From positions 372,001 to 436,000 of the forward strand of contig JAHDQO010000004.1 in the NCBI GenBank assembly GCA_018433765.1: 64,000 bases of DNA. The letters are read 5' to 3'. Origin of the DNA: Tissierellales bacterium. Its GTDB lineage: Bacteria > Bacillota > Clostridia > Tissierellales > Sedimentibacteraceae. The number at the start of each line of letters is the position of its first letter. Position 1 is the stretch's first letter. The position numbers were made by a program, and so were the translations under genes. Of the stretch, positions 26,573 through 33,312 are shown one piece after another. Below the pieces are notes generated by a model that worked only from the letters and a program-made list of their open reading frames with translations, was not told the origin of the DNA and searched no databases.

Positions 26573-26601
26573 TTGACATGATGAATATTATTTAGTATAA
26601 T
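26573..26601 (+). promoter_or_regulatory. Consensus promoter of the argG leader
   Basis: TTGACA (26573-26578), 17 bases, TATAAT (26596-26601). The transcript should start near 26608, at the 5' end of the T-box leader. Confidence 0.85.
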
Positions 26602-26607
26602 TGCATA

Positions 26608-26845
26608 AAAATAATAACAATCTAATGATTAGGAGATTAAGCTGTAGAATGCTTTAGCGAGTCGAAGTTGGTGGAAGTTCGGTAGTGATATATAGCCCAA
26701 GAGAGCCTATGAAGAGATTCCTTGAAATGTTTATGCAGAGTATGGGAATACGGTTAAAAACCGTTGTCATGAAAGAGATAAAGCTGTTGCTTTAACAAGA
26801 GTGGTACCGTGATTTATATCGCCTCTTAATTGGGGCGATTTTTTG
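26608..26845 (+). ncRNA. T-box riboswitch controlling argG
   Basis: Stem I features are AGCGAGTC followed by GTTGGTGGAAG (26657-26678 region). The T-box sequence AACAAGAGTGGTACCGTG is at 26794-26811, and a terminator with ATCGCCTC pairing with GGGGCGAT ends in a T-run (26818-26845). T-boxes sense uncharged tRNA and allow readthrough. By hand, GCTGTA (26641-26646) pairs with TATAGC (26691-26696), leaving CCAAGAGAG as the 3' side of the specifier loop. AGA (Arg) within it would suit argG, but the fold is tentative. Confidence 0.92.
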
Positions 26846-26903
26846 TTTATACATATTTATTATATGTATATTTATTCGCATATCTTGTTATACTATAAGT
26901 TTT

Positions 26904-26955
26904 AAAAAGAGTGGTATCGTGGTAAAAGCTGCCTCTTTAGTGAGGAGCTTTTTTT
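26904..26955 (+). ncRNA. Second T-box antiterminator/terminator without its own Stem I
   Basis: A second T-box sequence AAAAAGAGTGGTATCGTGG (26904-26922) is followed by another hairpin (AAAGCTGCCTC with GAGGAGCTTT) ending in seven T residues at 26949-26955. Only about 58 bases separate it from the first terminator, too few for a Stem I, and none of the Stem I motifs is present there. Confidence 0.8.
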
Positions 26956-26984: not shown

Positions 26985-28205
26985 ATGGCAGAGAAAGAGA
27001 AAGTTGTATTAGCATATTCAGGAGGGCTTGATACATCAATAATAATTCCTTGGCTTCAAGAAAACTATGATTTAGACATAATAGCTTGCTGCGTGAATGT
27101 TGGTCAAAAAGATGAAATGGAAGGTATTAAAGAAAAAGCTATTGCTTCAGGTGCAAGTAAAATATATGTAGAAGATGTTACTAATGAGTTTGTTGAAGAA
27201 TATGTATATGGTTCTATAAAAGCAAATGCTGTATATGAAGGTAAATATTTATTAGGTACTGCATTAGCTAGACCCTTAATAGCAAAAAAATTAGTTGAAA
27301 TTGCACATAAAGAAGGAGCAAAATATATAGCACACGGCTGTACAGGAAAGGGTAATGATCAAGTTCGTATAGAAACTGCAATAACTGCGCTTGATCCATA
27401 CATTGAAATAATTGCACCATGGAGAAAATGGGATATAGTTTCAAGAGAAGATGCTATAGATTATGCTGACAAAAGAAATGTAAAATTAACAGTTACAAAA
27501 GAAAAGATATATTCTAGAGATCATAACTTACTGCATATCAGTCATGAGGGAGGACATTTGGAAAATCCAAAGAATGAAGCTAAAAGAGATGAACTCTTAA
27601 TGATGACTCAAACACTTGAAAATGCACCTGATATCCCTGAATATGTTGAAATAGAATTTGTTAAAGGTATTCCTGTTAAACTTAATGGTGAAAAATTAAA
27701 TGGACAGCAGATGTTAACTAAGCTTAATGAAATAGGGGGCAAACATGGAATAGGTGTAGCTGATATCCTTGAGAACAGACTTGTAGGGATGAAATCTAGA
27801 GGAATATATGAAACACCTGGTGGAACAATCTTAATAGAAGCTCACGAACATTTGGAAAGATTGACACTTGAGAAAGAAGTTTACCATTACAAGGAAATGA
27901 TAGCATTAAAATATGCAGAACTTGTTTATAATGGAATGTGGTTTAGCGGACTTAAAGATGCTTTAGATGCATTTATTAATTCTACACAAGAAACTGTAAC
28001 AGGAATTGTTAAATTAAAATTATATAAAGGTAATTTTATATTTGCGGGTATGAAGTCAGACAATGCACTATATAAAGAAGAAATATCATCATTTGGTGGA
28101 AGTAAATTTTATGATCATAAAGATGCAGACGGATTTATAAAACTGTTTAGTTTACCGTATAAAATACAAGCAATTAATGGAATAAAAGATTATATTAATA
28201 AATAA
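26985..28205 (+). CDS. argG: Argininosuccinate synthase
   Basis: 406 residues; joins citrulline and aspartate using [21 protein letters not shown] is the N-type ATP pyrophosphatase loop; [27 protein letters not shown] and the C-terminal tetramer part are all present and the length is normal. Strong AAAGGAGG ribosome site. argH is not adjacent. Expression should rise when the cognate tRNA, probably tRNA-Arg, is uncharged, through the leader upstream. Confidence 0.96.
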
Positions 28206-33063: not shown

Positions 33064-33215
33064 GTTAATATGAGCTTTATGGAAAGATATTACATAGTTT
33101 TTTAAATAAAAATGTTTAACCTGTTGAAAAATAAATGTTTTAAGTAAAGGATAATGTATGGAAATCATCAGGCAAGAAAATTTTTATAAAAAAAATAAAG
33201 ATTGTAACTTTTCAA

Positions 33216-33295
33216 CGATAATGGCAAACCTGTTGAAAAGCAGGGACGCAAAGTCAAAGGGCCTAATCGTTTTGACGTATGGCAGCCGACTATCG
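33216..33295 (+). ncRNA. c-di-GMP-I (GEMM-I) riboswitch upstream of the flagellar operon
   Basis: P1 is CGATA (33216-33220) with TATCG (33291-33295). Inside are GGCAAACC, GAAA, GGGACGCAAAG, GGGCCTAA and ATGGCAGCCGA in consensus order, with the expected two-helix core. This is the class that controls flagellar operons by c-di-GMP, usually switching motility off. An AAAGGAGAG ribosome site for a short reading frame directly follows P1, and CTTTTC upstream of P1 can pair with GAAAGG, which would hide it when P1 is formed. Confidence 0.92.
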
Positions 33296-33312
33296 AAAGG
33301 AGAGTTTTTTTA

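Follow-up and report, generated by a model that had tools for sequence, protein, structure and literature searches.

How could a transcriptional switch without a tRNA reader of its own respond to one particular tRNA? The question is raised by a leader that lies 5' of argG in the 64-kb window (the whole stretch of 64,000 nucleotides of DNA that was analysed, to whose positions all coordinates refer), in which a complete T-box is followed by a second T-box core and terminator, a half unit without Stem I.

One complete T-box and one half unit precede argG

The first unit of the leader is matched by the T-box covariance model RF00230 with 99.2 bits (gathering score 93) at 26616-26829, over model positions 1-219, and is thus a full-length T-box by its covariance-model match. 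Its specifier, AGA, reads arginine, in agreement with the pathway of the regulated gene argG, and the same triplet stands at the equivalent site in the argG leaders of Sedimentibacter and of a second family (f3). The covariance model was used in place of the minimum-energy fold of unit 1 alone, which lacked the T-box architecture and was no better than those of shuffled sequences. The features of the promoter and unit 1 are as follows.

26573-26601, + strand: promoter, TTGACA-17-TATAAT (12/12 consensus matches, promoter scan)
26616-26829, + strand: unit 1, a complete T-box with Stem I, Stem II, IIA/B, Stem III and antiterminator (RF00230)
26702-26704, + strand: specifier AGA, arginine (register of the RF00230 alignment; AGA in relatives too)
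26779-26794, + strand: Stem III of unit 1, UAAAGC (26779-26784), loop UGUU, GCUUUA (26789-26794)
26797-26827, + strand: antiterminator 1, A1 AAGAG/CUCUU, bulge UGGUACC (26802-26808), A2 GUGAU/AUCGC (sequence, RF00230 alignment)
26818-26845, + strand: terminator 1, AUCGCCUC-UUAAUU-GGGGCGAU plus U-run (-12.9 kcal/mol)

Elsewhere, the genome from which the window is taken has RF00230 matches numbering 22 in all, with three complete T-boxes inside 1.5 kb, one of them on the opposite strand (G000:C32:188314-189793; L007, L008 and L014). The window itself also holds a c-di-GMP-I riboswitch aptamer (33213-33297, + strand, 78 bits), followed from 33555 on by open reading frames that resemble the beginning of a flagellar operon.

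The second unit is built differently. RF00230 gave no match to it even at E values up to 10, and a Stem I with specifier loop is absent; only 58 bases separate terminator 1 from the second T-box core, so that no Stem I is possible before it, and this spacer has no RF00230 match either. A Stem III of its own, with RRRNG and AA flanks, was likewise not found in unit 2, where a weak hairpin (-1.6) forms in another register without RRRNG. The unit does have the T-box bulge, the A1 and A2 helices and the competing terminator that characterize the second unit of a partially tandem T-box. With A1 enforced, antiterminator 2 is canonical (6 bp in A1, the 7-nt bulge UGGUAUC and 5 bp in A2; -5.7 kcal/mol), and it competes with an intact terminator 2 (-13.4 kcal/mol). 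These results bear out what the sequence-only reading had described, namely a full T-box before a second T-box/terminator lacking Stem I, an intact second core and terminator, some 58 bases between the units and an end at 26955.

26862-26879, strand not assigned: ARG-box-like site TATGTATATTTATTCGCA, possible ArgR operator (11/13 matches to WNTGAATWWWWATTCANW, shuffle p = 0.043)
26898-26904, + strand: AGUUUUA, apparent Stem III 3' strand of unit 2, with its partner UAAAGCU (26779-26785) in unit 1 (7 bp, -5.1 kcal/mol)
26906-26922, + strand: T-box core of unit 2, AAAGAGTGGTATCGTGG
26906-26938, + strand: antiterminator 2, A1 AAAGAG/CUCUUU, bulge UGGUAUC (26912-26918), A2 GUGGU/GCUGC
26924-26955, + strand: terminator 2, AAAAGCU(G)CCUC-UUUAGU-GAGGAGCUUUU plus U-run (-13.4 kcal/mol; MFE fold)
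26985-28205, + strand: argG, argininosuccinate synthase, 406 aa (PF00764/PF20979)

A ribosome-binding site lies between terminator 2 and argG. The spacer thus contains an ARG-box-like site and, just 5' of the T-box, an apparent Stem III 3' strand. Such ARG-box-like sites recur between the T-box terminator and argG in other leaders (L053-L065, L027 and L100), typically 55-70 nt 5' of the argG start codon; each is marginal against shuffled sequences, while the position is recurrent. An ArgR gene is encoded in the window's genome. argG may be under dual control by T-box and ArgR, the latter perhaps acting as a roadblock.

Half units recur across genomes and are dispensable before argG

Pairs of T-box cores 80-130 nt apart, which is too close for an intervening Stem I, were sought with the reversed pattern as control. 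They occurred in 8 of 391 genomes of the class and 5 of 249 of the order (no control hits in either), in 25 of 398 of the phylum (control 3) and in 20 of 226 of another order (control 0). Closely spaced core pairs are not a product of chance, and the half unit, earlier called unusual, deserves the word only partly, since it recurs in 2-9% of the genomes searched and "partially tandem T-boxes" have already been named (PMC7583486). The genes 3' of half-unit leaders, named by eye from their sequence except for the window's argG, include trp genes, DAHP synthase (aroF), phenylacetate-CoA ligase-like genes, sodium/solute symporters, asnS-like genes, thrS, substrate-binding proteins and argG. In one symporter leader (L092, genome G177), the full T-box is followed by a pair of half units in series, both of which have a T-box, a terminator and a Stem III 3' strand of their own.

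Before argG, the partially tandem layout is found in three families of the window's order, the window's own included, but not in Sedimentibacter: the 15 argG leaders of the Sedimentibacter group, which belongs to the window's family, each consist of a single full T-box, with no half unit. The tRNAs near the Sedimentibacter argG were considered and set aside as unrelated, being tRNA-Val. In family f3, L100 combines a full T-box, an ARG-box-like site and a half unit, and L024 has the same half unit on a contig that begins just 5' of it; the half unit is a truncated remnant in L027 and absent from L034. In family f4, a full T-box and a half unit precede argG in three genomes of one genus (L097, L103 and L104). 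The argG half unit is therefore recurrent but dispensable, being absent from the 15 leaders and decayed in L027. The earlier proviso that it might prove not to be conserved accordingly holds for the Sedimentibacter group and fails for the two other families that have it before argG.

As a class, half units lacking Stem III have strands complementary to Stem III of their own leader

The half units fall into two groups, one with a Stem III of its own (group B) and one without (group A, to which the window's belongs). Those of group A keep, 2 or 3 bases 5' of the T-box, a strand resembling the 3' strand of Stem III. When the complete regions of unit 1 and half unit were compared, duplicated hairpins accounted for most of the duplex energy. 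We therefore restricted the comparison to the Stem III 5' strand of unit 1 with its loop, and computed the duplex energy of this segment with the half-unit strand for cognate and for permuted pairs (L024 stands outside this test, as its unit 1 was not found among the T-boxes of genome G058). In the discovery set of 14 group-A half units, the cognate energies summed to -114.7 kcal/mol against -58.0 ± 8.5 kcal/mol for permuted pairs (0/20,000), while for the group-B half units cognate pairing was no better than permuted (p = 0.33). A validation set gathered after the hypothesis from asnS, thrS and symporter leaders (14 tested, from L178-L194) gave the same picture, with -94.6 against -60.3 ± 7.9 (0/20,000). 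The symporters alone reached p = 0.00065; the four asnS leaders alone were not significant (p = 0.08).

The loop is the critical part of this test, because a 3' strand that had simply been copied would inherit its complementarity to the 5' strand. Part of the complementarity must stem from duplication of the 3' strand, and only the loop portion would speak against descent alone. Shuffled loops paired more weakly in the discovery set (-93.5 for the actual loops against -74.2 ± 4.9, p = 0.001), and in the validation set both the shuffling (p = 0.001) and the swapping of loops (p = 0.0005) weakened the pairing. The permutations ignore phylogeny, and leaders within a gene family are related; we regard the agreement across argG, symporters, thrS and asnS as the main safeguard against kinship.

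Compared with the local Stem III of unit 1, the predicted long-range helix has the greater stability in 25 of 30 cases; its distance to the T-box deviates from that of Stem III by no more than 2 nt in 21 of 29. In one leader (L118, genome G644), where unit 1 has no local Stem III, an 11-bp pairing joins its strand GAGGCAUGGAUC to GAUCCGUGUCU, which lies immediately 5' of the second T-box. In the window's own leader, AGUUUUA (26898-26904) forms 7 bp, one of them G-U, with unit 1, where its partner comprises the Stem III 5' strand and a single base of the loop; the spacing to the T-box is 2 nt, as for Stem III. This helix does not exceed the local Stem III in stability (-5.1 versus -5.4 kcal/mol), and stronger long-range helices are predicted in L096, L100, L128 and L189; the chance of 7 bp at such a spacing is 0.0035, and shuffling the half-unit strand gives p = 0.076 for the energy. 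At one position, an A-U pair of the window (UAAAGC/GUUUUA) corresponds to G-C in L100 (UGAAGC/GUUUCG), a compensatory change. A half-unit strand that matches Stem III of its own leader's unit 1 would dock the half unit on the first aptamer; because the window's own pairing is short (7 bp), we infer such docking for its leader from the class.

The base N of the UGGN motif offers a second comparison between units. C is present in the half unit of five of the seven leaders with C in unit 1, and in only one among those with U in unit 1; five leaders are thus C/C, three discordant and the rest U/U, suggesting that half units tend to retain the UGGN base of their unit 1. The discordant leaders, C/U or U/C, are L097, L115 and L116. 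A pattern search of the window's own genome for tRNA-Arg(UCU), whose discriminator base was to be set against the N of UGGN, found no tRNA.

A parallel case in aroF leaders

Among 30 aroF leaders, all taken from one family and selected solely by protein similarity, 29 have two T-box cores, 102-122 nt apart in 25 of these; the sole exception (L141) is situated near the beginning of its contig stretch. An extra hairpin lies between IIA/B and Stem III in unit 1 of the aroF leaders and of related leaders in group B (e.g., GGGGAUAUCGGAU...CCUGUAUCC), and the aroF-type half unit contains the 3' strand of this hairpin (AUCCCGUAUCC), often together with the complement of its loop. Cognate pairing of the extra hairpin exceeded permuted pairing (p = 0.0004 for 25 leaders, including L109, which has no usable segment and adds a constant only), and loop complementarity within aroF gave p = 0.002 to 0.12, depending on length. 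Changes in the 5' strand are mirrored in the half unit, for example in L147, where GGAUAUCAAAAUAG goes with UUAUUUUCGUAUCC. Thus two different hairpins, Stem III and the aroF extra hairpin, seem from their sequences to be shared in the same manner.

An extra hairpin of the form GGUAUCGGA/UCCCGUACC stands before Stem III of unit 1 in L107, L109-L113, L115, L120-L127 and L132-L161. These leaders precede aroF, PaaK-like, trp and symporter genes, and their half units have the 3' strand only, with covarying changes.

A proposed mechanism and its alternatives

From the anatomy, the recurrence and the class-level complementarity observed here we infer docking of the half unit, a hand-over of the tRNA and a second check. 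On balance we lean, by a little, toward reading the argG leader as an arginine T-box with one tRNA reader and serial switches, in which unit 2 would borrow Stem III so that one tRNA is checked twice. Stem I would bind uncharged tRNA-Arg and antiterminator 1 would be stabilised, allowing RNA polymerase to pass terminator 1 and to transcribe the half unit, which has neither Stem I, Stem II nor the 5' half of Stem III but does bring a Stem III 3' strand, antiterminator 2 and terminator 2. AGUUUUA would then pair with UAAAGCU of unit 1 and displace the local Stem III 3' strand. Through pairing with the 5' strand behind the tRNA-contacting purines of unit 1, antiterminator 2 would come to lie in the place of antiterminator 1, docked on one and the same complex of Stem I and tRNA, and the 3' end of the uncharged tRNA could move from bulge 1 to bulge 2 (UGGU). 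argG would be transcribed only if the same tRNA were uncharged at both moments, and leaky readthrough of a single terminator would be suppressed. Such a course of events agrees with Stem III being required for sensing of the 3' end (PMC7583486) and with the tendency to retain the UGGN base. For partially tandem T-boxes as a class, a strand exchange, in which the half-unit 3' strand invades loop and 5' strand of the unit-1 stem and moves one tRNA through two or three sequential decisions, has in our view close to, if not quite, an even chance of being right; on this account L092, with its two half units, would be the three-decision case and aroF would use the neighbouring hairpin.

The main alternative, which we hold to be unlikely, is that the half unit is a plain second attenuator or the remnant of a partial duplication, whose antiterminator no longer senses tRNA and which lowers expression by a fixed factor while being lost. 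Its patchy distribution, with absence in Sedimentibacter and decay in L027, the lack of an own Stem III together with the weak hairpins of unit 2, and the reported failure of an antiterminator to bind tRNA to any appreciable extent when Stem III is lacking (PMC7583486) are all consistent with this. However, a mere terminator needs neither the T-box bulge nor A1 and A2, which are intact; moreover, the half-unit core is retained in f3 and f4, the second T-box core is kept in 29 of the 30 aroF leaders, and the Stem III complementarity extends into the loop.

The sequence-only reading had proposed that the second sensor would depend on a tRNA bound to the Stem I of unit 1 or would act as an unspecific check, and the first option is favoured by the complementarity of Stem III-less half units to the unit-1 Stem III of their own leader. 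The second, in which any free uncharged tRNA with discriminator A would stabilise antiterminator 2 through its NCCA end, so that terminator 2 reports general starvation, is less likely than an attenuator or remnant and appears to us improbable. The retained UGGN base (C/C in five leaders), the specificity of the half-unit strand for its own unit 1 and the poor tRNA binding of an antiterminator without Stem III (PMC7583486) argue against it, even though the bulge UGGU would fit any tRNA ending in ACCA and unit 2 has no specifier. Also improbable is a second, ArgR-controlled promoter between the units, whose transcripts would start at ~26900 and meet terminator 2 only: the ARG-box-like sites here (26862-26879) and in other argG leaders, the ArgR gene and an extended -10-like TGTTATACT just 5' of the half unit might point to one, but the promoter scan found none, nothing promoter-like stands at the equivalent place in L024 or L100, and in the f4 leaders no evident ARG box accompanies the half unit.

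Relation to known T-boxes and significance

Duplicated terminator-antiterminator elements were reportedly described by Vitreschak et al. in 2008 (RNA). A review lists partially tandem T-boxes among its open questions, as of unknown mode of action (PMC7583486). The window's leader resembles these in having one Stem I and two antiterminator/terminator units; in difference from them, our literature search found no half unit in which Stem III is reduced to a 3' strand with complementarity to the 5' strand and the loop in unit 1. Unit 1 on its own is a complete transcriptional member of the arginine T-boxes (RF00230), with an Arg specifier before argG as in Clostridioides difficile argG CD1785 (PMC11477304), to which the window's leader adds a second switch without Stem I. 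With fully tandem T-boxes (thrS, trp, ilv; PMC12452182) it shares two serial switches before one gene, but in those a separate Stem I and tRNA belong to each unit, whereas here one reader would serve both. The layout thus belongs to a known, unexplained class, and the shared Stem III appears to be new as far as the literature searched shows. If true, the shared Stem III would provide a concrete mechanism by which one ligand complex governs several terminators in turn via strand displacement, and an RNA switch would check the same tRNA repeatedly, with the reader-less unit keeping its specificity.
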